From positions 1 through 64,000 of the forward strand of contig BDDD01000984.1 of the NCBI GenBank assembly GCA_001972305.1: 64,000 bases of DNA, in the 5' to 3' direction. Below are positions 4,680 through 61,182 of the stretch, piece by piece; within the stretch, counting starts at the first letter, position 1, and every line of letters starts with the position of its first letter. The notes beneath the pieces were generated by a model. That model was not told where the DNA came from, did no database searches, and saw nothing but the letters and a program-made list of their open reading frames with translations. The stretch is from Cephalotus follicularis (Eukaryota; Streptophyta; Magnoliopsida; Oxalidales; Cephalotaceae). The position numbers and the translations under genes were made by a program.

Positions 4680-5012
4680 GTAGATAGGGGGTTTAGGCGT
4701 TGACGTGTAAAGTTTACGCGTCGACGCGTAACGTCTGAGCGTCGACGCTTTGTACTAGGCGTCGACGCTTAGAGCACTAGGCCTTGAGCATTGACGCATG
4801 CGCTAAGCGTCAACTGCTGGCAACACATAAGGCATCAACGCTTAACGAAGGCGTCGACGCTTATGTCCCCTTCCCTCATAGCGTTAAAGTGCCACACAGT
4901 CGGGCGCACTAACGCAAAGGCACCTAGGCTTCGACACTTAAGTCAAAAATGTCGACGCCCTGGGCACTTAGGAACACGTCAACATGCATGAAAAACACGT
5001 TGACGCCCTGGA
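4680..5012. repeat. Interspersed GCGTCGACGC palindrome array
   Basis: The 10-bp palindrome GCGTCGACGC occurs exactly at 4718, 4739, 4759 and 4851. Degenerate copies (gcgttgacg, gcattgacgc, gcatcaacgc, tgtcgacgcc) fill the gaps at roughly 20-40 bp spacing. The flanks extend the symmetry to AGCGTCGACGCT. Function unknown; see findings. Confidence 0.75.
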
Positions 5013-5535
5013 CTGTTGTCAACTGTAAAAATCGCCCAAAATCCCTCAATAATCCATATAAATTGTTTTTAATTCAAATCCAAGGAAGCCACAAGCTCCC
5101 ACCGTCAAAAGGAACATAAAAACACCTTTAAAACCCTTTAAAATAGTGTCCATAACCCTTAGAATGAGGGAAAACGGGAATTGGGAAAAAAGCTCCAAAT
5201 CCTTCGATTTCACTCAAATCTCCCCTTTAATCCGTATTTAACCATATCAATCACCCTAGTCCATCCATATAGCATATATGCAACTGTCCATAACCATAAA
5301 ACCATGCAAATCCATCCATATAAGGAGATCAGAGCATAAGTAGAACCTACCTTAATTAGCTGAGAATGGAGAATAGGTTGCTTGAATCCGTATTCCGCTT
5401 CTCCCTTCAGGTTCTATATGCTGCCACGATTCCAATAGCTGCTTGTTTGCTTGATTTCGCCCATTCTCTCTCTAACTCACTCTTTCACTATCTCTCTAAG
5501 GGAAATGAGAAGTGAATCAAGGATGACCGAACCGC

Positions 5536-5547
5536 CTATATATATAG
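5536..5547 (-). promoter_or_regulatory. Probable LTR TATA box
   Basis: CTATATATATAG lies in a GC-richer context on the minus strand. A CT/GA-rich leader and a 'aaggtagg' splice-donor-like site lie downstream on that strand (about 5360), the usual order of a plant LTR promoter and R/U5 leader. Position relative to the LTR start (about 200 bases in) is plausible. Confidence 0.5.
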
Positions 5548-5749
5548 GAATAGGCTCCCTTAGGCGAAAATCTCACAAACAGCGAGCGGGTTTTACTAAA
5601 CCTCCCTTACTCATAAACATGCACAAAAGTGGGAAATAGTATATACAATATACATTCCATGACATCCATAAGTATAATATTGTACAATACAATATAAATA
5701 TAAGCAGAATACACGCTAATCCGTACACATAAAATATATGGGGCTCACA

Positions 5750-6641: not shown

Positions 6642-6647
6642 AGTTTT

Positions 6648-15706: not shown

Positions 15707-18104
15707 TATCACACCTAGGATTTTCATTAAATGTAATATTGTATTTCCCGATGTAACCTATGCATTAAATTAATGATAATCGTGATTTTCCACTTTGTGG
15801 TGTTAAGACTTATACGAAAAGTTAAAGAAGTGTTGTGGGAATAGGGCAGGCAACCGACTGTCTGTGAGAGATAGCCGACTGGACCCCCTTATGTGTACCA
15901 GCCAACTGCTGAGGAAACAGTCAGCTTGAAGTGTCGGCAGAGGCAGCTGACGACTACCATGGGTCAGGCATCATAACGTGCTCCCAGACCTGGCATGACA
16001 GAGGGAAAGAAATTTTGGGGATTGTGCTGGCAGAGAAAGAAAGAGAGGAGGGAGAAATGAATTTTCTCCATAAAAACACATGTTCTCTCCTCTTCCCATC
16101 AGCAATTCTGAGAAATAGAGAGTTGTGAGGAAGAAAAGGGAAAAGAGAGAGAGAGAGAGAGAGAGGTTGAGCCCGAATGCTCCGCGCTTGAATCGGAAGA
16201 TTGGAGACTCGAACCAGTGGGAGAGCCAGACCTGCTGGAGTCGTTGGATGGATTTGGAAGCTTTGAACGTGGATTTGGGACATAAAGAGGTGGATTGCAA
16301 TTCCTAACTTGGAATTCAAAGGTAGGGGAAATTTCATAATCGTTATTTAAGTTCCGTTATAATGGACGTTTATGAATGAAATGCATGCAATGGACTGTGA
16401 TATAAGCATGAAATGTGTTGATGGTGATAAATGCTCTATTGTGTTTGGATTTGGATTGATGATTGCATGTATTTTCTGCTATTTTTGTGCACTGCGTGTA
16501 GGACCAGCCGACTGTTCAAGGCTACCAGTCGACTATTCAGTGCGAATAGCCGATTGCTCGAGGGAAACAACCGACTATGCTATGGAGCCAGTCGACTGTT
16601 CATGCGTTTTAATGGAGATTATCTCCTGATGTATGATTAGCCGACTGCCAAGAGAAGGCAGCCGATTGATTGATGGCACAGCCGATTGTTTGGGACGACA
16701 GTCGACTATCCACGTGTCACTTTACCCAGATTCACTGGGGTAGCAATGATGGGTCAAGAGGCGATGTAGAAGATACGTACTGTTCATGAAACAACCGACT
16801 ATCTTGCAGAGACAGCCAGCTGTTAAGTGAGCAGCCGACTATCAAACATGAGACAGTCGACTGTTGAGGAAGGCAGCCGACTGCCAGATCTGGGACAGCC
16901 GACTGTTAAGAGGAAACAGCCGACTGTCATGAAGGGGCAGTCGACTGTTGAGGGACAGACTTGCATTTTGAGCGTATATTTGCATCGTGTTTTGATATGA
17001 AATGAACTGATGATTGAAATTTGAATGATTCTAAAGTGTTTTATTCATTTTAGAAATGTGTACATGATTTTATACAAATCATTATTTGATATGAAAATGT
17101 ATATTTTGATAAATGTATGTTTTCGACGGATTGAAACATGGTTTCAAAGATGCAATGCATTTTAAAATAAATGTATTATTTTTAGTATTTTATAAATTAC
17201 TTGGAAACGATCATATTTGAATTGATTTGTTGATTGTGATTGATGTTGTACTGGCTGGGGTGACGGAGTGTCACCGATGGCTGGTGGCGGGATGATCTCC
17301 TAGGTGCCAGAAGATGGCTAGGGATGCCCAAATAAAATGTTACCAGACACATAGTGCAAGTAACACGGGTTACCATGATTGCTGAACACAGAGTGCGAGC
17401 ATCATGAGTTTGATTTGTTGCTTTGCTTCGTCACCCGGGAGTCGGGGACCGGAGTAAGAGTACGACGTCGGGGCCAGGAGATGGCAGCGTTCTTCGTACC
17501 AATTCGATTTGATTTGATTTGTCCTTTGAGACATGATTGATGATTTGATGGTTGTAGCCACTTGGCATGGTTGCACATATTGGCATAGATACATATATGT
17601 ATATATGTACAGTGATATATTGTATATTACATCACGAATGCATTCACTTCATGACATTCATTATCATTGACCCTAAATTACACTTATGATTTAGCCGGGT
17701 GAGGACAAAGGCTAACCCCCTACTATTATAGATTGATGCAGTGACTTGGATTTCGATCTTGCGCAGCAAAATCAGAGGGGAGACGGAGTTTTATCTGCTT
17801 AAATAAATGTTAAACGATGTTTTGAGACACGTTTTGTTCTGGATTACTGTACTAATGTTTTAATGTTGTTGATCGACTTTTGGATCACGCTTCGTTTGTT
17901 GGCCTTTTAAGAATGACTTAATGATGATGTTGTGGGAATCATGTGGCATGGGACACATGATTCGGTTTACTTTCATCTTGTATTTAAATGCTTCCGCAAG
18001 ATGTTAATGTTATTTAAAGTTTTAAATTTACCATATTTTCATAAGCTGAATATTTATGTTAAATTTCCATGACCTTTATGTTGTCAATGAAACGGGGTGT
18101 GACA
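15707..18104 (+). repeat. 5' LTR of element B
   Basis: Starts TATCACACC (expected TG has become TA) and ends CGGGGTGTGACA. Collinear with the 3' LTR at 25607-27949, with scattered substitutions and small indels. The segment 15850-16950 holds the CAGCCGACTGT/CAGTCGACTG motif array. A CT/GA-rich leader lies near 16130-16170. The segment 17690-18104 is shared with the LTR of element E and, reversed, with 34922-35400. Confidence 0.9.
15850..16950. repeat. Array of CAGTCGACTG-type motifs in the 5' LTR of element B
   Basis: Some 18-20 copies of cagccgactg/cagtcgactg lie mostly 20-40 bp apart, densest at 16790-16950. The exact palindrome CAGTCGACTG is at 16854 and 16938. Most copies differ by one T/C change in the centre. 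The 3' LTR has the same array at 25750-26810. Confidence 0.8.
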
Positions 18105-18108: not shown

Positions 18109-18120
18109 TGGTATCAGAGC
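18109..18120 (+). other. Primer-binding site, tRNA-iMet type
   Basis: TGGTATCAGAGC, the complement of the 3' end of plant initiator tRNA-Met, lies four bases after the 5' LTR. Confidence 0.95.
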
Positions 18121-18933: not shown

Positions 18934-21041
18934 TGTAATACCTCGTTTGTTCGTGTGCATATTTTTGGATTTTTAATTTGTTTTGTTATATTGTTGGTCC
19001 ATTTTAAATTTTTGGGCTGTTATGTTTTGGGCTATGTGATACCATGTTTGGGCTTTGGTATATTGGTTGGCATATAATTATGGATAAGTCAAATTGATTG
19101 TTTTATTTTTTTAAATTAGTTTAAAATAGTTATTATTATTATTATTATTGCAAAATTGTTTATTTGGAAAAGAAAATCTTTTTATTTTGGTTAAAATTTT
19201 ATTTCCTTAAGCTCTCCTCTCCCTCTCCCGTATGAATATCTCTCTTTTCCTTATTGTCACCGATTCCCTCTCTTTTTCTCCCTATCTCTACCGAAAATCA
19301 CTGCCCAATTCCTTATCCTACCAAAATTCTGTTTTCTTTCCTTATCTCAACCTAAATTGCCTATTATTTTCTGGTAAAAAGTGCCTATGACCACTGTTTT
19401 TGCATTATTTTCTATCTCCCTCTCCTGGTAGCCGAACCTGAAAGTTGAGAGTGGTTTTGTTCTTCATGTTTTGTTCATCAAATCATGTTAGTTCTCTTGG
19501 TTGTTATGATTGTTATCCTATTTTGTTATGGTTTAGCAATTGGCTTTGGTTTTAAGTGCCATCCGATTCTCTTGGGTATAGGCTGTTAAAATATTGGTTT
19601 TGATTTCTGCCATGCATGCTTTGCTAATGTTTTTGGAATTGTTAACAAGTCCCGAGTTGTCTTGTGATGGTAGTAAACAAGTTTTGAATATAACAATTGG
19701 TGTTTGATAGAAAATTGGTAATGGAACTAAGTATGCAATGAATTGGAATTTGCTTCTCCTTAAAGTACGATCACCCTTTGCATGATTCTTTGTCTTTAAA
19801 TGAAATTGTTAGGTCACATAAGTCTTGTTTAAATGTTTATGTTCTTCTAGTGTTGTAACATTGGAGTTTTGATAGCAAAATTGTATTGACCTGCCATACT
19901 TTGTCTTTCTGTCGCCTGGAACAGTAAGCTGTCTATGTAAACAGTCGGTTGTTGCGCTTTGAGTAGTCGGCTGCCTTGTAAAAACAGTTGGCTATTTTCT
20001 CTTGCACAGTCGACTGGACCCCTGTCACAATCGACTGGCTATTGTTCTGCTTCTGTAGTCGGCTGGCCATGTGATATAGTCGATTGCCATGCCCCAAACA
20101 GTCGACTGGATTTTGTTATTGTCGGCTGGTTTTGTCCAGTAAATTTTTGGTTTCAAGTTTTGTTATCCGTTTGTTCTTCTAATGTTTTGGAGTCTGTTTT
20201 AGACACTGTTAAATTGATGTTTGATGTTCGGAAGTGATTTTTGAATCCTTATATGAATGATATTGCATCTTTTATATTTTTGTGCTACGAGGGGCAATTA
20301 GAAATTTGTTGATCAATTCTTAAGTCATTATGTTAAAGAAATATTGAATATTGTTTTGGATACCGTTTTGAGTTTTATATTTGGCTATGAAACTTGGATT
20401 ATGCTTTGAAAATAAGATTTTGTTTTCAGATATCGTTTTGAAAATTTGTTAACGCTTGAAATTTGGATATTGGTTTTGAATTGATAGAATTGTTTATGTG
20501 ACTGCTTTCCTTCGTTTTCTGAAATAATGTTAAATTACTTTATGCATGAGTTACATTCCATTTGAATGTTCAGGTATTTTCTATTCTTTAAAATGTCGTT
20601 TTATGTTTTATGACTCTATATCCGTACTGAGGTTTGCTCAGCGCGTTTTTGTTTTCCATGCGGCAGGTATTCTGGGACAGCATCCAGGAAACGTGTGATG
20701 AGTGATGTCCACCATGTCTGAGGATCATCTAGGAGTGTGATCTTGCTATGTTTCTATTAGGATTAGTTTATGAACAATAAGTACTTTTTGGTTTATTATT
20801 TCAGTATTTGACTTAAGGATTATTTTTAAGAATTTGGCTTATGTTTATGCTTTCAATTTATGAATAAAGTTTCAGACTATATCATAGATTATAAACGTTA
20901 TGTTTAGACCATCACGCATTAGAATAAAAGATAAACTAAAATTTTGATAAAATGAATAAAATCGATCTTTGTTATAAGATATGTTATGAATAGTTTCGAA
21001 ATAGGTAACCGTAATGACTCCCGCCGTTCGGGGGTGTTACA
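18934..21041 (+). mobile_element. Solo LTR (family C) inserted in element B gag
   Basis: Starts TGTAATACC and ends GGGGGTGTTACA, 2108 bp, with gag on both sides and no internal region. The flanks CTGAG (18929-18933) and TTCAA (21042-21046) fit a decayed 5-bp target repeat. The sequence expected from gag relatives at that spot is close to both. It contains a CAGTCGACTG cluster (19930-20130, exact copies at 20007 and 20099). Its end matches 1100-1526 and, reversed, the LTR at 30014-33415. Confidence 0.85.
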
Positions 21042-21522
21042 TTCAACCTATCTGGTGGCCGACGAAGAAAAGAAGATTCGGAGGTTCTTAAGAGGCCTGC
21101 GACCGGATCTTCGGTCTCGGATTAGAGTTATGGAGCTGGGTACCTTTGTGGAGGTTACCCAGAAGGCGAGGTTAATAGAAAGTGTATTAGGTGAAGACCG
21201 GGCCGAGAGGGCCCGAGCACAGCAGAGTAAACAGACTTCTACTCAATCTAGGCTAGCATTATCGAAATGGCAGGGAAGTGGTTCACCATCAAAGTCACCA
21301 AAGAATAGATCCAATCAATCAGCCAGTCAGGGGAGTAACACGAGGTCCGGAGCTTGTTCTGCCTGCGGCCGTATGGGTCACATTCAGAAAGACTATTGGT
21401 TGAAGAAAGGGCTGTGTATGAGATATGAGGAGTCTGGCCACATGGCGAGGGATTGCCAGCGAGTGGTAGCGGTTCGGCACCTGGACCGTCACAGCGGAGA
21501 GATACCAGCAAGGGTATCGTGA
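21042..21522 (+). pseudogene. Element B Gag, C-terminal part with zinc knuckles
   Basis: Continues the gag frame with 'YLVADEEKKIRRFLRGLRP', 'GTFVEVTQKARLIE', then a Ser/Gln-rich linker and two knuckle-like motifs: 'CSACGRMGHIQKDY' (last Cys is Tyr) and '[14 protein letters not shown]' (second Cys is Tyr). Both knuckles therefore lack one zinc ligand. The frame shifts near 21455, where the protease-linker frame takes over, so Gag and Pol are no longer in one frame. Confidence 0.85.
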
Positions 21523-22742
21523 AAGGTAGAGTTTTCATTCTCACTCAGACAGAGGTTCCAGAGTCTACTTCTGTTGTGGGAGGTACTATATATGTTTACG
21601 ATTTTTCTGCTATAGTGTTGATGGAATCGGGAGCATCGCATTCTTTTATTACTTCCCGTTTTGCATCATGTTTAAATGTGCCTCCTTATTGCATGCCATA
21701 TGTTCTTGATGTGAGTACACCTACTGGGGGTTCCATGTGTACAGATTCGGTGTATAGAGGTTGCGAGATTTCTATGGCAGGTGTTCCAGTGTATGCAGAT
21801 TTGATTGTATTGCCCATACATGATTTTGATGTCATCTTGGGTATGGACTGGTTGTCAGCTTACCGTGTATACATGGACTGTTATAACATGATTGTGGATT
21901 TTTGCTTACCTAATGGAACTACTATACAGTTCAAGGGAAACAAGGGGTTCTCGACGCCGATTATATCTTTTATTCGTGCCTCGAGGTACCTAGAGAAAGG
22001 ATGTGAAGGGTTTCTGGCACATGTGATTGACAAAAGAAAGGAGAAGGGTAAGAGCCTGGAGGAAGTTCTGGTTGTGAATGAATTTCCAGATGTGTTTCCT
22101 GTAGACTTGGTGTCTTTACCACCGAGGAGGAGCATGGAGTTTGTGATTGACTTGGTACATGGTACGGCTCCTATCTCTAAGGCGCCTTACCGAATGGCTC
22201 CTGCGGAGTTGCGAGAATTAAAGTTACAGTTGCAAGACCTAATTGATAAGGTTTTTGTATGGCCCAGTGTTTCTCCGTGGGGCGCGCCCGTGTTATTTGT
22301 GAAGAAGAAAGATAGGTCGATGAGGCTCTGTATCGGCTACAGGATATCGAATAAGGCTACCATCAAGAACAAGTATCCTCTTCCACACATTGAGGATTTG
22401 TTTGACCAGTTGCAAGGGTCAAGGGTGTTTTCTAAACTAGACCTGAAGTTGGGTTATCACCAGCTGAGCGTAAAGGAAGGAGATATAGAGAAGACTGCCT
22501 TCCGGACTAGGTATGGTCACTATGAGTTCTTGGTAATGCCGTTTGGTGTCACCAACGCACCGACAGCGTTTATGTCACTGATGAATGATGTGTTCCGACC
22601 GTACCTGGATCAGTTTGTGGTAGTGTTCATTGATGACATACTGGTGTACTCAAGGAGTGAGGAAGAGCACGCCTATCATCGGAGATTAGTTTTGCAGATT
22701 CTCAGAGAGCATCAGTTGTATGCAAAGTTTGGCAAAATGTGA
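21453..22742 (+). pseudogene. Element B protease and most of reverse transcriptase
   Basis: One open frame of 429 codons. The protease domain starts near 21610 with '[11 protein letters not shown]', so the catalytic Asp of the D-S-G motif is Glu. It ends with '[13 protein letters not shown]'. RT follows from about 22100: '[20 protein letters not shown]', '[17 protein letters not shown]' (usual D-G-S is D-R-S), '[13 protein letters not shown]', '[20 protein letters not shown]', and the catalytic '[11 protein letters not shown]'. At 22735 one extra A in an A-run shifts the frame and stops translation at 22740. The product would be catalytically doubtful even if expressed. Confidence 0.9.
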
Positions 22743-23470: not shown

Positions 23471-25561
23471 ATTTAATTAGTCACCGGGGGGTTTTGTGGC
23501 TAGCATGCAAGCACAGCCGGCGCTACTGGACCATATAAAGGATTCACATCCTGAGTTACTAAAGATTCGCGAGAATCTGGAGTCCGAGTCTGACTTTCAG
23601 ATGCATTCTGACGGCATTCTGAGATTTCGGGGCCGAGTATGTGTTCCTGATGAGGTTTGGATAAGAAGTGAGTTGTTATATGCGGCGCATAAATTACGGT
23701 ATAGCATACATCCTGGCAGCACAAAAATGTATCAAGACATGAGGAGGAATTACTGGTGGTCTGGCATGAAGAGGGAGATTTCCGACTATGTTGCGAAATT
23801 TTATACCTGTCAGACTATCAAGGCTGACCACCAGAGGCCAACGGGGTTGTTACAGCCTTTACCAATTCTAGAGTGGAAATGGGAGCATGTGATGATGGAT
23901 TTTGTTTCGGATTTTCCTCAGCACACTTTTTGCCTACCCACGTCACAAATTCGGCGAGCAAGTTGGCTCGGTTATACATCAAGGAGATCATGAGGACGGT
24001 GTTCCTGTTAGTATAGTTTGTGATAGAGATTCAATCTTCACTTCCAACTTTTGGAGGAGGTTTCAGACAGCTTTTGGGAAGAAGCTAAACCTTAGCACTG
24101 CCTTTCACCCACAGACAGATGGTCAGTCAGAGCGTACCATCCAGACTTTGGAGGATATGCTCCGAGCTTGTATTATTGACTTTGCTGGCACTTGGGAAGA
24201 CCACATTCCTCTGATAGAGTTTTCTTATAATGACACCTATCATTCCAGTATTCGTATGGCACCATACAAGGATCTTATGGAAGAAAGTGTAGATCACCCA
24301 TTTGTTGGGATGAGGTTGGCGAGCGATTGTTGCTTAGATCGGATCTGGTGGAGGAGACTTCTGAGAAAGTCAGGTTTATTAGAGAGAAACTGCTTGCAGC
24401 TCATAGCCGGTAGAAGAGATATGTTGACAGCGTCAAGAGGATACCTCTGAACTTCGACGTTGGTGATCATGTGTTTCTAAAGGTTTCACCATGGAAGGGC
24501 GTGCAGAGATTTGGGAAGAAGGGCAAGTTAGCTCCGCGCTACATTGGTCCTTTCGAGATCTTAGAGAGAGTTGGGGAGGTGGCTTATCAGCTTGCTTTAC
24601 CTCCTGCACTATCAAATGTGCATGATGTCTTCCATGTGTCTATGCTGAGGAGATATATTCGAGACCCATCACATGTCTTGAATTATGATTCAGTTCTTGT
24701 GCGAGGTGACCTTTTTTTGCGAGGAGTTACCGGTACAGATTTTGGACTGGAAAACACAGGTATTGAGGAATCGAACCATTCCTATTGTAAAGGTTCAGTG
24801 GCAGTTCCATCGACCCGATTAGGTGACTTGCACTACAGGAAAAGGGGGCAACGGCTAGGGCACTTCCCCTCGCCATCCCCTCGCCATTGAGTCAACGGCG
24901 AGGGCATGGCGAGGGGAGCACACCCTCGCCAATTTACTCCTCTCCATCAAGTACGGAGAGGGTACGGCGAGGGGACGCCGAGGGTACCTTCCCCTCGGCA
25001 TTTACTGCCCTCGCCACGCAGAGGGCATGGCTAGGGCAATTTACCCTCGCCATGCCCTCGCCATGGCGAGGGCACTGCGAGGGCATGGCTAGGGCGCTGG
25101 GCTGCCCTGTCATCCCCTACCTCGTCGTGGTACAAAAAAAAATTATAAAAAAAAAACTAGTAGAGAGAGAGGGAGACAGAGGTTACCTCCGAAGGAGAAA
25201 GTGAGAGAGAGGTATGCCGGCGGTGGAGAGATTGGGAGAGAGTAGGGTGGGAGAGTGGGAGAAAGAGAGAGGGAGAAAGAGAGGGGTGGGGCGGCGGGGA
25301 AGAAAAAATATTGAGGAAGAAGAAGTGAAAGAGAAGAAGACAATCGGGCAACAAATTAGGGTACCTGGCGAGGGCATGGCGATGGTAATAATGCCCTCGC
25401 CATGCCTTTCTTTAAAAAATAAAAATAAAAACGGGCAAAACGACGAGGGGACTTAATGCCCTCGCCACGCCCTCGCCGTATGCCCTCGCCGTTGGCCTGT
25501 TTTTTAGTAGTGTTGGGAACGCGAGGAGGACATTAGAGAGTGTTACCCATTTTTGTTTTAG
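23471..25561 (+). pseudogene. Element B integrase with chromodomain, split by a CACTA element
   Basis: Integrase begins near 23496. The zinc-binding region has 'SIHPGSTKMYQDMRRNYWW' and 'CQTIKADHQRPTGLLQPL'. The core starts 'MMDFVSDFP', then about 30 codons are missing and the frame changes. The rest of the catalytic core follows ('[15 protein letters not shown]', '[20 protein letters not shown]', '[12 protein letters not shown]'). Another frameshift lies near 24270. The C-terminal part reads 'FLKVSPWKGVQRFGKKGKL' and 'VHDVFHVSMLRRYI'. A chromodomain follows: 'LDWKTQVLRNRTIPIVKVQW' up to the insertion at 24830 and 'EREEDIRE' after 25515, with the stop at 25559. The chromodomain marks a chromovirus and in relatives directs integration to particular chromatin. 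Confidence 0.85.
24831..25512. mobile_element. Small CACTA-type DNA transposon (non-autonomous)
   Basis: A 682-bp insertion with termini CACTACAGGAAAA and TTTTTTAGTAGTG (inverted, 10 of 13 matching) and a perfect 3-bp target repeat TTG (24828-24830, 25513-25515), the hallmarks of CACTA/En-Spm elements. Many copies of GGCGAGGG/CCCTCGCC, in both orientations, crowd both subterminal regions (24865-25100, 25365-25495). A purine-rich centre lies at 25150-25345. No transposase is present. It sits inside the chromodomain codons of element B; the ORFs in it are repeat artefacts. Confidence 0.9.
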
Positions 25562-34862: not shown

Positions 34863-34921
34863 ATTCTGTTGTTGTATGGCTTAAAGCACTTAGTTTACCA
34901 CTTGGGGATAGCCCATGCAAC
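34863..34921 (-). other. Leader remnant upstream of the reversed gag
   Basis: The 59 bases before the gag ATG on the minus strand. The primer-binding site and 5' LTR of this element are missing, cut where the next LTR begins at 34922. Confidence 0.5.
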
Positions 34922-35669: not shown

Positions 35670-35915
35670 TTCCACTCTGTGTTTAGCACCTGGTCACTTC
35701 CACTCTGTGTTTAGCAACCCGGTTACTTCCGCTCTGCGTTTAGTAACCACCACAATAATCAATCCGTCACATCGGACAAACAATCTATCAATCATGTCAC
35801 ATCGGATAAAAAATCTATCAATCATGTCACATCGGACAAACAATCCATTCAGGGATTCTTCCACTCTGTGTTTAGCACCTAATCACTCCCACTCTATGTT
35901 TAGTAACCCAGTTAC
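35670..35915. repeat. Short tandem units in the reversed LTR, first block
   Basis: Repeated 'cttccactctgtgtttagc' units, plus three units of 'atcatgtcacatcggacaaa' (35760-35850). Related LTRs have only about two diverged copies of the first unit (for example near 17350-17400, 'gaacacagagtgcgag' on the other strand). Confidence 0.75.
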
Positions 35916-36725
35916 TTTCGCTGTAATGACCTGAGTTTCCATTAAAGATATTAATTATGGAAAGATGATTGCTATTATGTAATTGGAAAATATTTCAAGG
36001 GACCCGTAGTATGACCCTATGCTGGGGGGTTCGGGGGTTCCGCTCCCTGGTGAGCAGAAGGGGGGTCCCGCTACTCGGATAGTGGGCAGGGGCTCAGGGG
36101 CAGCGCCCCCGGAAGAAAATTGAAATTGGTTATTTCTTTGGACTGGAAATTCTGGCTTAAGCGCCGACGATTCTAGGTAAAGAGTCGACGCTTTGGTGGT
36201 AAACCAGCGACTCTTGGACCCCTTCTAACGGAGCTTTAAACCAGTGCAACGGCAAATTGGACAAACCCCTGACACCGGCGATGCTTACTAGAAAGCGTTA
36301 GCGCTTTGGAGGCAACCGACGACGCTCCAAATGTAAGCTTCAACGCTTTGAGATCAAGTATTGAGGTTAACTTGGACGAGACTTAAAGCGGCGACACTTT
36401 GTTGGAAAGCGTCAGTGCTTTAGTCGGGATAGAAGTTGGAGAACTCAGGATAAGCCCATGACCGGCGACACTTAGGGAGAAAGAGTCGACGCTTTGACCT
36501 GTGTTAGGTGCAGAATTCTAAGTTTTATGTCACTTGGGGAGGAATTAAATGGATTATGGGACACTTGTCAAGCAAGGAAAGGATGACTTATGATATTTTG
36601 ATGTTAAGGGACATGTGGCATCAGCTGATGGAAAGAATTCCATCACATGGACAACTATGAGGCAAACTCACATGGGTGAGGTCATGGATGACACTATGCA
36701 AGCTTGGCCTCCAAGTTTGTCTCTC

Positions 36726-36733
36726 CTATATAT
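36726..36733 (+). promoter_or_regulatory. Probable TATA box of the level-1 LTR
   Basis: CCTATATATG in a less AT-rich context, about 800 bases into the LTR. A mild candidate. Confidence 0.4.
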
Positions 36734-36801
36734 GTATGTGTAACTTCAGCTGAGTAATGGTTAGTTTTCTGCTGAGTTTGGAGAGAAGATTTCAGCTAAG
36801 G

Positions 36802-44636: not shown

Positions 44637-45164
44637 TCAATTCTCACTCTCACACTCTCATTTCACACATTCTTCTCCCTCTCTCTATCCTTCTCACACT
44701 CTCTCTCTAGCTGGAGCCTCCATCTTCCTCTCTTGCAGTCGGATTTGCAGCTCCTTCAACAAGGACACCGATTACAAGTGGTGGCTTACCGATTGAACAA
44801 GAAAGTAACGGATTATTGGGCGATTTCTGCCGATCGATTGATTGGGAGCTCAACTTTTGAAGCTTCAGTGATAGGTAGGACTTCTTTACTGAATTGCCTA
44901 TTGCTTTATTGATTGATTGATTGAATTGCATGCTTGAATGACTGATTGAATGATTGAATTGAGTGTATTGAGTGAATTTATGGTTTTTAGGGTTTTTTAG
45001 TAAATCGTTGACCTAATTGTTAATAGAAAGATTGAAATGTTAAATTGAAGGTTGTAACTAGTTTTACTAACCTTAAAGAACGATTTTTAACCCTTGGTTT
45101 CTTAAAGAATGGATTTGATTGGATTTTGGCTTGAAATATGTTGGTTTTCTGCAGAAAAATCGGC

Positions 45165-45500
45165 CATTCCCTGCAAAGACGTCGATCCCTTTGCCCATGG
45201 GCATCGATGTCTTTCACTTTGGGATGTAGCCTCCTTGCTTTCACAGCAAAGACATAACGTCTTTGAAAGGCGTCGACGTCTTTTGCTTGAGATGCCTTTC
45301 CTCAGAGAAGGCGTCGACGCGAGACATCGATGCGCATTCCCAGGCCATTTTCATTGAAACGCGTCGACGCCTTTTTCCAAGGACATCGACGTCTTCGGAC
45401 AAATTGAGAAAGACATCGACGTCTTTGAAAGACATCGACGTCTTTCTACCGTTTTCAAAAGCATGCCTTGATACGCATCGACATCTTTTGTTAAAGGCAT
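45165..45500. repeat. TCGA-centred palindrome array of the level-3 LTR
   Basis: About ten copies of a motif approximating AAAGACGTCGACGTCTTT, for example 'ggcgtcgacgtctttt', 'acatcgacgtcttcgg' and two adjacent 'agacatcgacgtcttt', with some 'ggcgtcgacgc' forms. Confidence 0.75.
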
Positions 45501-47025
45501 CAATGCCTTTCAGGCAAAGTGGAATTTTTAACTGTTAAAGCTGGTTTTTCAACCCTTTTCACATTGCCGGTTGACCGGAACCTCACTTGAGGTATTCAAG
45601 CGTTTAAAACACAGTTTTCAATGGTTTTCAAAGATCGAATTGATAGAATGATAGAGTGACAGCTTGGGCCATAGGTGACGACTCAGTGACTCTCATTGAC
45701 CAAATAGATGTTCATTCCTATTTCATCGATTCGATTGTCAGCGCCTAGCAGCTACCGATTGAATGCTTGAGTCATGAGTGTTGTTGTGAGTCTAAGTCAG
45801 TAAAATGGACGCACGTTCCCATCCCTCAATTAGGCACCACCACTTATTGACTTGCTTCGACATTGTATTGATACATTGATCGATTGCTTAAGTCATGAGT
45901 GTTGTTGTGAGTCTAAGTCGGTACGATGGATGCAAGTTTCCATTTCTCCATTAGACACCACCACTTATTGACTTTACTTACATTGTATTGACTTGATTGA
46001 TTGACTGTATCGTATGGATCCTATAGAGCGACCTTGTGGTTTACGTCGGCATGATAGGTTGACTTTTTCCACCTATTCCGTGGATCGTTTCTTTTATTGT
46101 ATTGTCTTGCTGACGAGCATGTGCTGATGAGCACGATTGATTGATGATTGACGCTCGCTGAGGGCCGTAGCTCCCTAACGGCATCAGTAGCTCCCTAAGT
46201 TGTAGTTCATCGAGATTGTATTAGCCCAGCCATAGGCTGGAAGATCTATGTGTTCCAGACCTGATTAGTCTAGGAACCGTAGGTAGATCTCCCACCCTTT
46301 TTGAAGGACTACCTTCCGTGGGATCGATCACTGCTAACTGATTGACACTGAATTGACATCGGTCGCATGCTCTATAGGATATTGATTGATTGATTGGGTG
46401 TTTCATACACCGACATTGAGTGTCTGCCATTGATTGATTGTTGTTATAGATCCTATCCGTATGCTCTGTTATGGGCCATTGTCATACGGGTAGTCTGATC
46501 GCCAATTGTACATTTACATTTGCCATGTCATGCATTGATATTGTACACCGCACATTGATATTGTATTGATTGTCACCGATATTTCCCATTGTACATGCAT
46601 ACATGCTGTATGGGGTTTATGCTTAGCCAGTGTGGCTAACCCCATCCTTCGGGGTGGGGCTGTGTTATACCTTTGTATGCGGCATAGGTAGGGCAGCAGG
46701 TAGCAGCGGACAAATGGACTGAAGACTCGTTTGATCGCATGACTGCTTGGGTACCGCAGGACTGGTTTTGAGATTGTAGTGAAGTTTGGAATGTACTGTA
46801 TTGTAATACTGTATTGAAGATTTGATAATGTATTGTAAAAGACTAGTATTGTAAAAGATTTGTATTGTACTGTATAGATGGATTGGTATTGTATCTTCCG
46901 CAAGTGTTATATATTGCAAATTTTAAGTTTTCTGCATTTTTATATTGCTAGTCCCGACCATTGTATTGGGTATTGATTGAGAGTAATGCCACGTGTCCGC
47001 CCTGCGGGCTCGGGGTGTTACAGTA

Positions 47026-48098: not shown

Positions 48099-49649
48099 AT
48101 GAGTTCTGCTCCGACAGTTCAGGCTAGAGTGTTTGCTATGGAACTGAGTGCTGCAACAGGGTCAAATGTTGTGATTGGAGGTACCATTCGACTCTTTCAA
48201 CTTCCAGCGCGGGTTCTTATTGATCCGGGTTCATCCAATTCATTCATTGCATTGCATTTTGTCTCCCATGTTGGGTTGAGACCCGAGTACCTTCCTTTCT
48301 TTATGGAGGTATCCACACCTCTCGGTGAGTCAGCAACCACCGATCGAGTGTGTAGAGATTGTATTGTTGAGATTGATGATCATTGCTTGTTAGCCGATCT
48401 TATTGTTTTACCGATGAATTGCCAAGATGTGATTCTTGGCATGGATTGGTTGTCTGGTAGCTTTGCTCAGGTGGTTTGTCATCGGAAAGTAGTGGTTTTC
48501 AGTCCTCCGGGATGACCACCTTTTCGGTTTCTTGGCACCTTAGAGCCATTGTTTGTTCCGATGATTTTGGCTTTGCATGCGGACAAATTGTTATGACAGG
48601 GATGCCAGGGGTTTCTGGCACATGTGCTTGATTCTGACATATGGCAGCCAGAACTGGAGGATATTCCAGTGGTTTGCGAGTTCGGAGATGTTTTTCCTCG
48701 GGATTTGACGTTGTTGCCGCCAGACAGAGAGATAGAATTTGTGATTGATTTGATACCAGGAACTGCACTGATTTCTCGAGCACCGTACCGAATGGCACCG
48801 ATAGAATTGAAAGAGTTAAAGATACAGTTACAGAATCTTCTCGACAAAGGTTTTATAAGACCTATAGCTTCACCCGGGGGAGCACCTATCCTTTTTTTCA
48901 AGAAGAAAGATGGATCGCTTCGTATGTTTATTGACTACCGACAGCTCAATAAAGTTACAGTGAAGAATAAGTACCCTCTGCTACACATTGACGAGCTGTT
49001 CGACCAGCTTAGAGGAGCGACAGTGTTTTCTAAGCTCGACTTGAGATCGGGCTACCACCAGTTGAAAGTCAGACCGAAGGATATTCCGAAGACGGCTTTC
49101 AGATCGAGATATGGCCATTATGAGTTATTAGTTATGCCTTTTGGTGTGACTAATGCTCCTGCGGCTTTCATGGACCTGATGAACCGAGTGTTCAGACAGT
49201 ATTTGGATCAGTTCATTGTAGTGTTCATTGACGACCTCTTGGTCTATTCCAGGACCGATGAGGAGCATGACCAGCACCTCTACATTGTATTGCAAACATT
49301 GAGGGATCATCGACTGTATGCCAAATTTGACAAGTGTGAGTTTTGGTTATCGGAGATTGCTTTCCTAGGGCATATTGTTTCTAGCAACGGTTTATCAGTG
49401 GATCCATCGAAAGTAGAGGCAGTGAAAGATTGGAAACAACCGACGAATGCTTCCGAAGTTCGCAGCTTCTTGGGTTTAGCAGGATATTATCGTCGGTTTG
49501 TTGAGGGATTTTCCCGTATTGCAACACCGTTGGCCAGATTGACACAGAAGAACGCTACCTTTGTATGGGATAGTGATTGTGAAAGAAGTTTTCAAGAATT
49601 GAACATGAGACAGAGGAGGTGGTTTGAGCTTCTTGATGATTATGATTGA
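48099..49649 (+). pseudogene. Level-3 protease, RT and collapsed RNase H
   Basis: Protease: 'RVLIDPGSSNSFIALHF' (active-site Asp kept) to '[13 protein letters not shown]'. Stops at 48513 and near 48594 follow. RT is a 341-codon open stretch from 48624: '[20 protein letters not shown]', '[20 protein letters not shown]', '[15 protein letters not shown]', '[19 protein letters not shown]', '[12 protein letters not shown]', '[20 protein letters not shown]', '[19 protein letters not shown]'. At about 49600 'CERSFQEL' passes directly to '[15 protein letters not shown]' and a TGA. About 110 residues that carry the RNase H active site in relatives are missing, in frame. RT itself has all catalytic motifs. 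Confidence 0.9.
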
Positions 49650-51603: not shown

Positions 51604-51940
51604 CGATGCGTGGACCCCATACATTGGGTGGACCCATATACATTACGTGGACCCCACATATTGGGTGGACCCATATACATTGCGTGGACCCCACACATTG
51701 GGTGGATCCAAATACATTGCGTGGACCCCACACATTGGGTGGACCCATATACGTTGCGTGGACCCCACACATGGGGTGGACCCTATACGTTGCGTGGACC
51801 CCACACATCGGGTGGACCCATATACGTTGAGTGGACCCCAGGTATCGAGTGGACCCATATACCTTGCCTGGACCCCATGCATCGGGTGGACCCATATACA
51901 TTGCCTGGACCCCACACATCGGGTGGACCCATGCAAAGCA
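51604..51940. repeat. 37-bp dimeric tandem array, 3' LTR copy (about 9 units)
   Basis: Same dimer as at 38763-38945, but about 9 units with more sequence variants in the right half ('cctggaccccatgcatcg', 'gtggaccccaggtatcga'). The variant units are not in the 5' LTR. Confidence 0.95.
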
Positions 51941-56759: not shown

Positions 56760-56835
56760 CTGCCCAGACCGTCGACGCCCAGCATTAAAGCGTCTGCGCT
56801 TTAGCTGACGGTCGAGACAAGAACAAAGCGTCTAC
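56760..56835. repeat. GTCGACGC-type motifs upstream of the ORF
   Basis: 'ccgtcgacgcc', 'aaagcgtctgcgcttta' and 'gacggtcgagac' lie within 76 bases, the same motif class as in the LTRs. Confidence 0.6.
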
Positions 56836-56953: not shown

Positions 56954-58200
56954 ATGGTGAAATCAAAAGGTCTTGAGCAAGGGCAAGGCTCCAAGGGCAA
57001 AACGAAATCGGTTGGGAAAAAGGGGAAAGAGAAGGCTGTTGCCACCACCTCAACCACCACTCCAGAGGTGCCTCCCTCTCTCCCTAGATATCCAGAGGCC
57101 TACTTTAACAGAAAAATCCTAGTAGGTAAAGTTCTTGACTTTGAGTTTTGTTCTAGGGAAGGATTTCCCATAGTAGAATGGATTAGATTTCAGGGTTTAG
57201 AACCACTTTTCTCTTTGCACAAAGCTAGTTATCCAGACCTAATGAAGTAGTTCTATGCTAAAACTAGTACTATCTCTTCATACACTTCGGTTGGCATAAG
57301 CACCACTGTCAAAGGAAAGTCCATTGATTTGGATTTAGACGAACTTCATACCATCCTGAAAATTCCGAACCTAGGTGTTCAAGGTTGGAATCAACGCACT
57401 TGGGTCACTGGCAATGATTTCGACAGACTTGATTGTGTACGAGTCTTATTCGGTGAAAACGCTGATCCGATTCAGCGAATGTACACTAGGAACTTACCTT
57501 TGCACTATAGATTCTTGCACCGTGCGATATGCACGCACATTCTTCCCAAGGCCGGTGGGTTCGATGAGGTAACCCACATGGAAGCCTTCACTATGTACCA
57601 TTTTATCACTAGTCGGCCAATAAATGTTCCCTTTCTTATTGTCAAATATATGCATTCGATACATGACCGGGAGAATGCTAGGTTAGGATATAGCAATATC
57701 ATAACTAGGATTCTCGAGTGTTGTGATGTCGACTTCACTGGGGAAGTGCACAATGACCTTCAAAGTTCTGACAAGCTGGGAAAAGGAACCCTCGGAAGAA
57801 TGGGGTTCAAAAAGCACAAGAGGACAGGTGCTTGGATTCCAAGGGATGAGGACTCAAACAGAATAGAGCAAAAGGAGGGAGAAGCCGAGGCTGGTGAAGA
57901 AGCGGAGAATGTACCTCTACAGATCGAACCACCGCCTCAACCGATTCCAGATGACCATCCTCCAAGAAATAGGACGGATGAGATGTTCGACGCAATCAAA
58001 GGCATGCAGAAGAACATTGAGTGCATGAAGAGGCGACAAAAGATATTTCTCAAGAGATTTGCTGATGCAGGCCTTATTTTCTATGATGGCCTCATTTCTC
58101 CATCCTCCAGCCACGACGATGATCCCCAGACGATGCGGCAACTGATGATATGGAGGGTGATCTCGGAGGAGATGATGCGGGCACTCGCATGGAGGATTGA
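56954..58200 (+). pseudogene. Putative plant transposon protein (nearly intact)
   Basis: From ATG 56954 one frame runs with a single in-frame TAG at 57248. The N-terminus is basic and Lys/Gly-rich ('KSKGLEQGQGSKGKTKSVGK'). A globular domain follows, typical of the 'putative plant transposon protein' family: 'YFNRKILVGKVLDFEF', 'IRFQGLEPLFSLHKASYPDL', then after the stop 'FYAKTST', 'TVKGKSIDLDLDELHTILKI', 'YRFLHRAICTHILPKAGGFD', 'ITSRPINVPFLIVKYMHSIH', 'LGKGTLGRMGF'. An acidic/Pro-rich linker and a 'MQKNIECMKRRQKIFLKRF' helix follow. Near 58125 the frame seems to slip. The other frame gives an Asp/Glu-rich tail ending at TGA 58198-58200, while the original frame stays open to 58303 into flanking LTR. 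The family is common in plant repeats; its biochemical role is not known to me. Confidence 0.7.
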
Positions 58201-58280
58201 GCATTTGCATCTCATGTTTCTTCTTTTGCATTTTCTGTTGTTACTCTTTATGAACTATGAGCGTTGTAATCATAGCTTGA

Positions 58281-58617
58281 TAATTGAAAGCAATACATTT
58301 TAAAATGTAAAACCAGCCATTCGAACCACATTCAAATACACGAAAATATTCATGTTTGCATAACAGTTTCTTAATCCCTTGAAACCGTTTTCACAATCCT
58401 TTTGGAAAACATTACATTTCGTCATAACAATGATTTTATTAAACCATTTACATACTTCCCAAAAAGAGGAAACGATTTAGAAATCAAGTGATAACTCAAT
58501 CAACAATCCAACTCACAATTGTATGCAATGCAAACATATGCTAAAAATGCAACCGGGCTCTATTCGCTTCAAATCTCATCCCTTTGGCATCAACGCTCAA
58601 GGCATGGACCATTAAGT
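58281..58617 (-). mobile_element. Last visible segment of the reversed host LTR
   Basis: 'caatacattttaaaatg' and the following AT-rich 300 bases continue the LTR interrupted at 56642. It ends at the start of element E. No gene. Confidence 0.65.
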
Positions 58618-61182
58618 TGTAACGCCCAGAATTTTAATATATTGTAATTCCATAATGTAAATGTACTTTATTATGGAATTAATAAAAATATGGATTTCCA
58701 AATTGGATGATGTTTTCCCAAACTCTGATGATGCTGATTTTGGAATCCAATTGTTAGAGAAATGTTAAAAGTGTAAATTTAGTTAAACGACACAGTTCAG
58801 AGGTTAAAGCGCTGACGCCTGGATTTGGAGCGTCGATGCTTAAACGATTGAAATGCGTGTTTAAATTCAACACATAAGCGCCGACGCCTGCATGTAAACG
58901 TCGACGCTTTATGGCGTATTCTGCATACACATAACAACAGATGGACGTGTCGCAGGGAGGTGATTTCGTGACACTTTCCAAGCATCATAGCAGGCGCTTT
59001 AAGAACGTGGCATGCATGCCCTTAATGCCAGAATTACCTGCAACGAAAGGGCATGGGGCAGAGGGACAACCTCTGAGTGCATGGCCTGTGAAATGGGAGG
59101 TTTGGGCACCTGTTGCACCAGGCTGCCAGTTTGAGAGAGGAAAAGAAGTTAGGAGAACATGCAGAGAAGACACAACGAAATCTGCATAAAAAGTCGACTC
59201 CTCTCACCCCTCTCATCTGTTACAGAAAGCTGGAGGGACAGTGACACTGTGAGTGACAAAAGAGAGCAGGAGAACTTGAGAGAGGAAGCTCAACCATAAT
59301 TGTTGAGCAAAGGAAGCTTGGAGCTTGCACACCAACTGCTGGGACGAACCAGGGAGCTTTCAAGCCGTACCTGGGAGCTCCAAGTGACTGGTTGGATACT
59401 AAAAGAGGTGGACTTTTGGCTTCTAACTTGAGGGCAGAGGTAGGGGAAGTCATAATTGCGTTTTGTGTTCAATACTTGGTGTATGTTCAGTGATGTTATG
59501 CATGAATTTCATAGCTTGATGACCCCTTTTTAGTCACTGAAATGATGCTACATTGTAATGGATGTATCATGTGATATTGCATGTTGCCTTTCTGGGCCTT
59601 ATACATGTGGGATTACATGTTACTGTTATGGGAATGTCACTGATTGCTCATGTCATGAGGTAGAAGACGACCCCTGAACGAAATCGTCAACGCCTTGGGT
59701 AAGCGTCGACACTTAATACTCTGAACTGCGTTTTATATGTTGAAAGCGTTTAAACATCGACGTCTAAAGGGAGGAGCGATTGATGACAGACACTGAAAGC
59801 GCTGACGCAAAAGGACTAAACGGCGACGCTTAAGGGACATAAACGTTGGCGCCTAAGGAATAAACGTCGATGCTTTAGAGTCCTGTTTGGACAGTTTTTA
59901 CGGTTTTGATACCCGACGATCCCGATTTCACCTAGGGTGCATTAGAGCATTTGTTTGCAATGCATATAAACTGTTTACTTCCTGTTTGGTTACTGTTTGT
60001 AAATCGTTTATGATTTCTAAAGCTGTGATGTTTAGAAATGCATATGTGAACTCAGAATGTGCTATTTTGAGTATGAAAATATGTATTGGTTAATAACGTA
60101 TTTTCGAACGAACTGGTAAACGATTTACACTATTGATTTGTTCAAAGGTATTTCTACTACTGAAATTACATATTTCAAATATTATTACTTTCAGAAATAG
60201 TTGAAAATGAACTGCCTGTTGTCAATCTAAACGATCACCACTGTACTGTTTACTGCACTGTTTACTGTTTGATTCACTGTTTGCTCTGTGAATTTCTATG
60301 TGGTTGTGCTTGAGCCACTGGTTGCATAGCGGTGGCTGCCAGCGCCGGCTAGTGGTAGGGTTGACCTAGGGGCCAGGAGTTGGCTGGGCGACTCACTGTA
60401 CTGTACCGTTGCCTCGCTTGGTTGCTGGAGCAGGGACCGAAGTGGGAGTGTAGCGTGGGGCCAGGAGTTGGCGGCGTTACATATACTGCCTGACTATTGT
60501 GGTCCTTTATGGACATACTATACTGCATGTTGGTCCTTTCGGACATTACTGCGATTGCGGATGTGATCCTGGCCAGATCACTACTGTACTGTTATTGTTT
60601 ACATATATTTTCTTATATATGTACCCATTGTTATTTTACTGTACTGCAAAATATATATTTTTTTCATATATATATAAACTTGTATTTCCTGCACTGCATC
60701 ATTTATGCATACATTACATGACATGCATTGTTGTTGATCCCGAGCTACTTTTATGACTTAGCCGAGTGAGGACAAAGGCTAACCCCCTACTTTACAGATT
60801 GATGCAGTGGACCGGTGCTGGACTGGCATGGGCAAAGAACGAGATGTTATGTTGTTTTGTTCTTGGTTTTACTTTTCTCATGTTTTGTAATAAACCGAGT
60901 TTTATTTAAGGACTAATGTACTGTACTATGGTTGTTTAACGTTGGAACTTAATATTGTACTGTGATCACGCTCTGTTTATGGGCTATTATCAACGACAAT
61001 CTTGTATTGGGTAGCGTGCAGTATGGGATGCACGTTACATGTTTTTCAGCTTATGAATCTTATGCTTCCGCAATTGATGTCTTGTTTATAAGTTTAAAAT
61101 TTTATGGTATTCACATAAGCTGAATTTGTGTGTTAATTGCCTTTACCGCTTTAATGTTGTCTTCTCAAACGGGGGCGTGACA
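58618..61182 (+). repeat. 5' LTR of element E
   Basis: 2565 bp, TGTAACGCCCAG to GGGGGCGTGACA. The right 450 bases match the LTR end of element B ('gacttagccgagtgagg', 'acaaaggctaaccccctact', 'tatgcttccgcaa'). It contains GCGTCGACGC-like motifs at 58800-58920 and 59680-59880. A weak TATA-like 'cataaaaag' lies near 59185, followed by a CT-rich leader. Confidence 0.9.
58800..59885. repeat. GCGTCGACGC-type motifs in the element E LTR
   Basis: Two clusters: 58800-58920 ('gcgctgacgc', 'gcgtcgatgc', 'gcgccgacgc', 'acgtcgacgc') and 59680-59880 ('gcgtcgacac', 'acatcgacgt', 'gcgctgacgc', 'ggcgacgc', 'acgtcgatgc'). Most copies differ from the palindrome by one or two transitions. Confidence 0.7.

Follow-up and report, generated by a model that had tools for sequence, protein, structure and literature searches.

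GTCGAC-centred palindrome arrays in LTRs of Cephalotus follicularis: candidate upstream enhancer-like modules of Ty3/gypsy elements

We identified arrays of short GTCGAC-centred palindromes in several LTRs of a 64,000-nucleotide stretch of the Cephalotus follicularis genome (contig BDDD01000984.1, positions 1 to 64,000; hereafter the window); on balance, these arrays are probably upstream U3 enhancer-like modules of Ty3/gypsy LTRs, made up of two-fold-symmetric sites for one or more dimeric host factors. The sites fall into three classes, or dialects, with the consensus words CAGTCGACTG (class 1), AAAGCGTCGACGCTTT (class 2), and AAAGACGTCGAYGTCTTT (class 3); all share the GTCGAC core and differ in the flanks around it (CAG.CTG, AAAGCG.CGCTTT, and AAAGACG.CGTCTTT, respectively). 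The arrays and elements of the window are as follows.

4691-4962, no strand assigned: class 2 array (AAAGCGTCGACGCTTT type), 6 sites at 4722-4953
15708-18104 (start approximate), forward strand: 5′ LTR of element A, Ty3/gypsy, primer-binding site TGGTATCAGAGC at 18109
16505-16947, forward strand: main class 1 array of element A (CAGYCGACTG), 13 sites, several steps of 20-22 bp
19908-20108, no strand assigned: class 1 array whose 8 sites span 19913-20103 and include two exact CAGTCGACTG
21429-22739, forward strand: element A, protease (RVP_2) and reverse transcriptase (RVT_1), Ty3/gypsy type
25608-27949, forward strand: 3′ LTR of element A, with class 1 arrays in decayed form between 25755 and 25868 and between 26490 and 26753
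32135-33300, no strand assigned: two arrays of class 2, one with 7 sites (32142-32377) and one with 4 (33151-33291)
34921-36800 (upstream end approximate), reverse strand: LTR "F", matching the element A LTR at 69% identity over its terminal 650 bp
45070-47022, forward strand: part of the 5′ LTR of element E, primer-binding site at 47026
48597-49646, forward strand: reverse transcriptase of element E (RVT_1), Ty3/gypsy type
58618-61182, forward strand: 5′ LTR of element G, primer-binding site at 61186

Paired copies, a primer-binding site, or both identify the regions at 15.7-18.1, 25.6-27.9, 45-47, and 58.6-61.2 kb as LTRs, and the status of 34.9-36.8 kb rests on LTR homology. The original prediction named at least seven LTR-like array regions; among these, the arrays at 19.9 kb (in an insertion that separates two gag blocks of element A) and at 32-33 kb have no defined LTR. 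The regions 15850-16950 and 25750-26810 lie in the two LTRs of element A and so represent a single family. In the 5′ LTR of this element, class 1 sites occur near 15.86 kb and from 16.50 to 16.95 kb; the decayed arrays of its 3′ LTR contain no exact GTCGAC, and 25750-26810 as a whole, likewise free of exact cores, carries decayed forms, for example CAGCCGACTG at 25799, 26577, 26597, and 26727. LTR "F" has a class 2 array at 36165-36487 (eight sites by consensus, three by matrix); since no primer-binding site follows it, it is a solo or 3′ LTR, and a mosaic element joining it to the gag at 34.1-34.7 kb was dropped because the junction lacks such a site. The element E LTR has a class 3 array of seven sites at 45183-45436; the word AAGACGTCGACGTCTT, predicted here, has no exact copy in the window, and the 45-kb array instead holds AAGACATCGACGTCTT twice. 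The element G LTR contains class 2 arrays at 58834-58902 and 59707-59868, and its 3′ LTR (L030), outside the window, is interrupted by another insertion. With motifs masked, the 4.7-kb array shares flank homology with arrays of L010 and of the L031 and L012 LTR pair, so this array appears linked to the L031+L012 family.

Pfam domains of element A occur between 20.9 and 24.9 kb in the order zinc knuckle, RVP_2, RVT_1, Integrase_H2C2, and SH3_Tf2-1, which fits a gag-PR-RT-INT order with a Tf2-1-like integrase C-terminus. The element may be a chromovirus of the Tekay/Del lineage; in frame 24414-24887, Pfam found SH3_Tf2-1 and no chromodomain. Element G has RVP_2 and Retrotrans_gag domains. On sequence grounds, elements A, E, and G are classed as Ty3/gypsy type. 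Among named homologues, the closest to one Athila-like protease come from Tasmannia, Cephalotus, and Telopea.

The arrays are real by comparison with shuffled sequence, a reversed control, and array-free LTRs. GTCGAC occurs 31 times in the window (mean 6.27 and largest count 15 in 100 dinucleotide shuffles), and 29 of its 198 TCGA sites (14.6%) have at least six of eight palindromic arm pairs, a fraction higher than for any other 4-bp palindromic core except TATA. Weight matrices built from stretches outside the window matched it 33, 29, and 17 times for classes 1, 2, and 3 (one site may score as both class 2 and class 3), against means of 1.82, 0.00, and 0.02 in 60 dinucleotide shuffles. Only two matches, at 3318 and 56773, fall in the 40,946 bases beyond 14 listed LTR or array regions, three of which were listed because the original prediction named them. 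Traces of arrays had been proposed at 12920 and 56760: GTCGAC is present at both, each time as one isolated site. The six LTR copies of families B, C, and D have one match in total, so the arrays are confined to some families.

Beyond the window, we used a 200-kb sample for which 20 contigs each contributed a single 10-kb stretch, taken at a fixed position; the sample is imperfectly random because the contigs came from a randomised list of which only numbers up to 1000 were kept. Sets of 314 and 334 kb combine this sample with the window and with a further 50-70 kb of selected stretches. TA runs aside, no palindromic 10-mers in the 200-kb sample of the 1.58-Gb genome are more over-represented than CAGTCGACTG and GCGTCGACGC. 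Genome-wide, AACAGTCGACTGTT has 11,812 copies, and its reversed control 25. Among the 188 sites in the 314-kb set, 49 lie in the 34.7 kb preceding recognisable primer-binding sites, two in coding matches (41.9 kb), and 137 in the remaining 237 kb, which includes unseparated LTRs whose primer site was not recognised.

Neighbouring sites keep a preferred distance. For nearest neighbours of one class lying no more than 60 bp from each other, the distance is 19-22 bp in 52 of 70 cases for class 1, 29 of 60 for class 2 (where spacing is looser), and 12 of 15 for class 3, a preference that is identical for 10-bp and 18-bp motifs; class 1 has a lesser peak at 26-28 bp. Among exact GTCGAC pairs, picked without regard to flanks, 18 are separated by 20-22 bp and not one by 6-19 bp. 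No helical period was found at 24-110 bp: the periodogram of nearest-neighbour distances peaks at about 12.3 rather than 10.5, so we dropped long-range helical phasing and limit the claim to the 19-22 bp spacing. Within-array class 1 spacers are no more alike than those between arrays (0.281 over 29 pairs vs. 0.277 over 436 pairs, the same array meaning the same 1500-base bin), for which reason we rejected tandem duplication as the source of the class 1 spacing. The corresponding values for class 2 (0.117 vs. 0.260) and class 3 (0.389 vs. 0.272) are uninformative, since each class has six within-array pairs and its spacers are no longer than a few bases.

Dialects are not mixed at random: 145 of 167 adjacent sites are of like class, whereas label shuffles give 64 (maximum 81). 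Beyond the class 1 core, information does not exceed 0.37 bits per base; inside all three classes, it is inflated by the choice of sites by consensus, and with two mismatches allowed a control palindrome gives 33 matches against 129 for class 1. Relatives with homologous LTR ends carry different classes. Many motif variants are explained by CpG decay. In three LTR pairs, CpG transitions within motifs number 24 of 147, similar to the rest of the LTR (89 of 424) and above non-CpG positions outside motifs (198 of 6394), as expected from the proposed deamination of a CpG core.

Regarding place, 9 of 17 stretches anchored at the LTR 3′ end (the anchor of L019 is doubtful) have arrays some 1.1-2.4 kb upstream of that end; four are array-free, three of them shorter than 1.9 kb and one (family D) of full length, and four hold just one or two sites. 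L021 has an additional class 2 array farther upstream. TATA-like runs occur near -500 in A, F, G, L021, and L010 (there are other such runs elsewhere), followed by a conserved block in A, F, G, L021, and L007, and the arrays are about 0.6-1.8 kb upstream of the run. This distance is far for a promoter-proximal enhancer and counts against such a role.

The original prediction offered a palindromic DNA-binding site or an RNA hairpin; a putative DNA site fits best, because the consensus is symmetric, information outside it is low, spacing is 19-22 bp, and class 1 spacers are unrelated. AP2/ERF (CBF) proteins may bind GTCGAC and are one possible lead. Each palindrome would most likely be a site for a dimeric transcription factor, or for a few related factors, which we infer to be of host origin; the preferred spacing places neighbouring sites two helical turns apart, and we therefore propose that dimers occupy one face of the DNA and cooperate. 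Different families hold to one of the three dialects, and after insertion the CpG-rich sites decay through deamination at the pace of the LTR; the array module would turn over fast while the promoter-proximal part of the LTR is retained. Array copies inside a family, it should be noted, are not independent. If the arrays are such enhancer strips, they offer a compact sequence handle on how the abundant retrotransposons of this genome are switched on, and the two-turn spacing with three dialects on one core would allow a clear test of families competing for one host factor.

A wider reading, possible though in our view unlikely, is that unrelated LTR families independently built phased GTCGAC arrays that are read by a few dimeric host or element proteins and amount to a common regulatory code. 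If so, dialect switches between close relatives would record an arms race or a change of niche, and the arrays, with about 200,000 exact 10-mer copies by extrapolation, would rank among the largest sinks that any plant genome offers to a DNA-binding protein.

Plain inheritance, with one ancestral LTR array whose diverged descendants were kept or enlarged by tandem duplication, seems quite unlikely to be the whole account. With motifs masked, the 45 arrays form 16 groups without detectable homology to each other. Homologous LTR ends are found in A, F, G, L021, and L007, whose array regions show no mutual match and whose dialects differ, and the class 1 spacers show no memory. All of this is compatible with very old descent, however, and several observations favour it: arrays occupy like places in related LTRs; one homology group of 15 arrays comprises all three classes; L007 and L013 have class 1 arrays that match at 79% over 73 bp, non-motif bases included; and the asymmetry of class 1 sites (CCGA or TCGG) is mostly the same throughout an array, which suggests some copying. 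The arrays had been predicted to be convergent or exchanged rather than inherited; the 16 groups and the class differences among relatives agree with this, but the like places make an inherited architecture with rapid turnover an equally good reading. The main array of LTR A has 13 sites, and the other 44 arrays have 3-10.

The arrays might alternatively recruit a trans-acting protein that changes methylation, as silencing or anti-silencing targets whose dialects co-evolve with the protein, although this seems quite doubtful to us. The precedent is VANC, whose targets in VANDAL DNA transposons are described as arrays of short motifs in non-coding parts (PMC5735166, PMC10398659, in the sections drawn on here). 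Our arrays match that description in being dense, built on a single motif, non-coding, and fast-diverging among related elements; their core is a CpG, and related families differ in dialect. They differ in that the VANC word, YAGTATTAY, is non-palindromic and, for VANC21, arrayed in one orientation, the binder is element-encoded, and the hosts are VANDAL transposons of Arabidopsis (PMC5735166, PMC10398659). Pfam analysis of ten window frames returned domains of gag, protease, reverse transcriptase, and integrase, plus a single Transposase_32.

Rather improbable are RNA hairpin arrays, in which a stem with a UCGA loop in element RNA would act in packaging, in dimerisation, or in the production of small RNAs. 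As single strands, the consensus words fold at -2.3 to -4.7 kcal/mol, and a small-RNA excess at LTR palindrome clusters is reported for maize Sireviruses (Bousios et al., 2016, as described in PMC10760457), which resemble our case in having palindrome clusters in the LTR cis-region but differ in element class and words. Across pooled GTCGAC sites (a set that also took in L001, L003, and L004, chosen for holding a class 2 word, and left out L002, which overlaps L027), arm pair 4 is complementary at 0.69 (0.36 expected) and pair 5 at 0.52 (0.32 expected), levels reached by 0 of 1000 shuffles, and the covariation of pair 7 is reached by 3 of 1000. Letters thus switch between dialects while symmetry is kept; the strength of the pooled signal can be put down to the mixture of differing dialects, although base pairing would explain it too. 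Within classes, flank covariation is weak (pair 6: 0.49 vs. 0.36 in class 1, reached by 34 of 1000 shuffles, and 0.48 vs. 0.34 in class 2, reached by 111). G-U mismatches are no more frequent than A-C (43 and 58 of 532 pair cells in 76 oriented sites). This lack of G-U bias, the spacing that is independent of motif length, and the unrelated class 1 spacers favour the DNA site over hairpins. That the palindromes are a functionless by-product, self-propagating by template switching or slippage, is very improbable: such events are expected to yield symmetric arms in tandem, but here one GTCGAC core recurs, a spacing is preferred although class 1 spacers are unrelated, and sites are scarce in coding matches and in the LTRs of B, C, and D.

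Among known systems, the BII-type tandem boxes in the U3 of the copia elements Tnt1 and Tto1 resemble our arrays in being repeated, subfamily-specific protein-binding boxes, and differ in their few copies, other words, and Ty1/copia hosts. A literature search with the literal motif words gave no retrotransposon title among the matches listed. The closest precedent is the LTR palindromes of Sireviruses, similar strips in other words from another class of plant element: these Ty1/copia LTRs carry repeated palindromic motifs, the RM boxes, in up to 32 copies per element and with a CGG-CCG signature that is absent in Tnd-1 (Bousios et al., 2010; PMC2829016, in the sections drawn on here). The grapevine RM, CGGTCGACCG, includes GTCGAC, and the Tnd-1 RM is ACAATCGATTGT. 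Like the RM, our motifs are short, dyad-symmetric, CpG-containing palindromes, present in numerous copies within the LTR's upper half and upstream of a TATA box or, here, TATA-like runs, with a common core and varying flanks across otherwise dissimilar LTRs. Unlike the RM, they occur in elements (A, E, and G) of Ty3/gypsy rather than Ty1/copia type, have a GTCGAC core with CGG-CCG absent from all three consensus words, and form three dialects within one genome; we measured a 19-22 bp spacing, and those sections of the Sirevirus paper give no spacing rule. RM clusters are also marked by a position shortly above the TATA box and by forming a CpG island; our arrays lie at about -1.1 to -2.4 kb from the LTR end, with TATA-like runs near -500. 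The occurrence of this design in both Ty1/copia Sireviruses and Ty3/gypsy elements suggests that arrays of palindromic sites are a recurrent solution across plant LTRs and not a peculiarity of Sireviruses.

The window is dense with nested LTR retrotransposons, and the arrays of TCGA-centred palindromes that the original prediction described in them were correctly seen: shuffle, reversed-control and genome counts bear them out as real and genome-wide. The window holds 31 copies of GTCGAC, whereas 100 dinucleotide shuffles average 6.27 and never exceed 15, and at least six of eight arm pairs are palindromic at 29 of its 198 TCGA sites. In 20 outside 10-kb stretches the corresponding figure is 99 of 551 (18%), and 3.6-6.6% for other cores except TATA and ATAT. 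When the core was not preselected, the top over-represented palindromic 10-mers in these 200 kb, after TA runs, were CAGTCGACTG (17 observed, 0.08 expected) and GCGTCGACGC (9 observed, 0.01 expected); extrapolation from the 20 fixed stretches to the assembly (1.577 Gb, 9746 contigs) gives, as a rough figure, ~200,000 exact 10-mer copies. Exact counts over the whole genome placed ACGCGTCGACGCGT at 93 positions (reversed control: 0) and the class 1 word at 11,812 (reversed control: 25). The words form three dialects around the GTCGAC core:

Class 1: AACAGTCGACTGTT, a 10-bp core, often with CCGA or TCGG replacing TCGA
Class 2: AAAGCGTCGACGCTTT
Class 3: AAAGACGTCGAYGTCTTT

The dinucleotide-shuffle check of the motif came out clearly in its favour: matrices trained solely on the 20 outside stretches and then run on the window gave 33, 29 and 17 matches for classes 1, 2 and 3, far above the 1.82, 0.00 and 0.02 of 60 shuffles. 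Looser consensus matching gave 129 class 1 matches in 334 kb versus 33 for a control palindrome, and in 314 kb permuted palindromes gave 23, 6 and 9 matches versus 103, 131 and 74 for the three classes. Neighbours within 60 bp belong to the same class in 145 of 167 pairs (shuffled labels: mean 64, maximum 81). Picking sites by consensus inflates the information within the words, not outside them; class 1 carries at most 0.37 bits per base outside its word, and the base just past the search word still holds 0.47-1.35 bits in classes 2 and 3, so that these words are truly 16 and 18 bp long. In two stretches elsewhere in the assembly (L006, 2578-4651; L009, 6107-7000) the class 3 arrays consist of two or three blocks ~600-1000 bp apart, and the asymmetric word GACGTCGATGTC is repeated in many of their copies; since so many share it, the active element itself may have the asymmetric form, which would then be more than a product of decay. 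A class 2 array of 13 sites in another stretch, L019, spans -2367 to -1980 relative to a primer-binding-site match that is itself doubtful. All four letters occur left of its central CG, and 5 of the 13 sites (7 including CAACGCTT) hold the half CGACGCTT unchanged, as if some sites joined one strong and one weak half-site.

Centre distances of 19-22 bp are found in 52 of 70 (class 1), 29 of 60 (class 2) and 12 of 15 (class 3) same-class neighbour pairs within 60 bp; among exact GTCGAC pairs, flanks ignored, 18 are 20-22 bp apart and the 6-19 bp range is empty. The preferred spacing is two turns of B-DNA, and it is independent of motif length, since the class 1 word has 10 bp and the class 3 word 18 bp. 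Class 1 spacers resemble each other no better within an array (0.281) than between arrays (0.277); a smaller second peak at 26-28 bp is seen for class 1, and no clear helical period was found at longer distances.

In 334 kb, 45 arrays with at least three sites were delimited. Of the 188 sites in the 314-kb set, 49 sit immediately upstream of recognisable primer-binding sites (34.7 kb in all), 2 within coding matches (41.9 kb), and 137 in the remaining 237 kb, in which any LTRs lacking a recognised primer site are also counted. Seventeen stretches have a primer-binding site or LTR end as anchor: nine carry arrays ~1.1-2.4 kb upstream of the 3′ end of the LTR (A, G, F and E in the window; L013, L021, L007, L010 and L019 outside it), four have one or two sites only, and four have no array, three of these being under 1.9 kb long. 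Joining L012, one of these short stretches, to its continuation L031 reveals an array 1.45-1.7 kb before the primer site. A TATA-like run sits near -500 in A, F, G, L021 and L010, though similar runs are also seen at other places. A, F, G, L021 and L007 each have an AT-rich stretch with a strongly conserved 29-base block downstream of it. The block has at most one change among four window LTRs that otherwise differ, lies ~400 bp before the LTR end, just past the AT-rich TATA-like run, and folds with a 6-bp stem (TTAGCC/GGCTAA); it is perhaps the start of R, in which case the arrays would lie in U3. LTR families B, C and D have a single match in total across their six window copies. Both copies of family D carry 37-bp tandem repeats of a wholly different word (...GTGGACCCCACACATTGGGTGGACCC...). 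Window positions are:

17691-17719, forward strand: block TTAGCCGAGTGAGGACAAAGGCTAACCCC
27544-27572, forward strand: the same block
35341-35369, reverse strand: the same block
60758-60786, forward strand: the same block
38754-38938: family D tandem repeats, 5.0 copies
51607-51932: family D tandem repeats, 8.8 copies

Element A encodes RVP_2 protease, RVT_1 reverse transcriptase, H2C2 integrase finger and Tf2-1-like SH3 domains, element E RVT_1, and element G RVP_2 and Retrotrans_gag; by these predicted domains all three are Ty3/gypsy elements, of a lineage that we take to be Tekay/Del, and no chromodomain was detected within the tested integrase piece of A. For the protease of an Athila-like element the nearest named homologues come from Tasmannia, Cephalotus and Telopea, in keeping with a flowering-plant host. 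At ~67787-70517 in window numbering, in the adjoining stretch L030 (64001-74000 of the same contig), the 3′ LTR of G is split by an insertion that has its own class 1 array of seven sites, at steps of 41, 22, 28, 21, 21 and 21 bp. A lone palindrome match at 56773 lies ~500 bp before an open frame (57251-58300) resembling Transposase_32 (PF20167, putative plant transposon protein).

We read the arrays, with slightly better than even confidence, as upstream cis-regulatory modules of putative two-fold-symmetric DNA-binding sites. This half of the original prediction is the best supported of the readings; its other half, an array of RNA hairpins, is weaker, and we hold it to be improbable. What speaks against the DNA reading is covariation between the arms of 126 pooled, de-duplicated GTCGAC sites, where pairs 4 and 5 are complementary at 0.69 and 0.52 versus 0.36 and 0.32 (reached by none of 1000 shuffles) and pair 7 at a level reached by 3 of 1000; a mixture of symmetric dialects yields just this pattern, as would base pairing in hairpins. 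Single words can fold, as can any palindrome. Within class 1 (45 de-duplicated sites), pairing is weak: the first flank pair is complementary at 0.49 versus 0.36 shuffled (34 of 1000 reach it), and pairs further out are less so. Moreover, sense-strand mismatches in 532 pair cells (76 oriented sites, nine LTRs) comprise 43 G-U and 58 A-C, and the lack of a G-U excess counts against RNA stems, which would favour G-U. Together with the independence of spacing from motif length, these mismatch and pairing results favour a DNA site.

Whether all matches reduce to one ancestral LTR segment was examined after masking the motifs and retaining 500 bp of flanking sequence, arrays being linked by an 80-base match at E 1e-8. 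The 45 arrays fell into 16 groups without mutual match, which speaks against a single segment, but related LTRs have their arrays at similar places. The largest group, 15 chained arrays, mixes all three classes. The final 600 bp of LTRs A, F, G, L021 and L007 are homologous (stretches of 46-658 bp, 67-87% identity), and their array regions have no match to one another; the class is 1 in A, L021 and L007 and 2 in F and G. The gag of A is 76% identical to that of G over 384 bp and 75% to that of L021 over 823 bp, so dialect does not simply track relatedness. Pointing the other way, the arrays of L007 and L013 have 73 bp in common at 79%, non-motif bases included, and their gag stretches do not match each other; L010 and L012 share class and much LTR sequence. 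Three histories would each fit these results: an inherited array layout that turns over quickly, occasional exchange, and parallel growth.

The deamination proposed for the CpG core agrees with three LTR pairs (A, G, L031+L012), in which transitions affect 24 of 147 motif CpG positions, near the 89 of 424 at other CpGs and above the 198 of 6394 at other positions. CpGs inside the motifs decay at much the same rate as those elsewhere, which gives no hint that the sites are protected once an element has inserted. Non-CpG motif positions are also hit at a raised rate (26 of 312, 8.3%), perhaps through CHG contexts or CpGs lost earlier.

A limited search of titles and abstract beginnings, with few subscription papers, turned up no description of arrays of this kind in Ty3/gypsy LTRs. 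Their structure resembles that of Sireviruses, a Ty1/copia genus in which, according to PMC2829016, palindromic repeated motifs with dyad symmetry occupy the upper half of the LTR ahead of the TATA box; these have a CGG-CCG core, their flanks vary by element, and the words given include CGGTCGACCG (grapevine) and ACAATCGATTGT (Tnd-1). A small-RNA excess on such clusters in maize was reported by a later study, as described in PMC10760457. The present arrays differ in superfamily and core and are thus not Sirevirus members; they are a real genome-wide feature with a clear structural precedent and a putative binding role.
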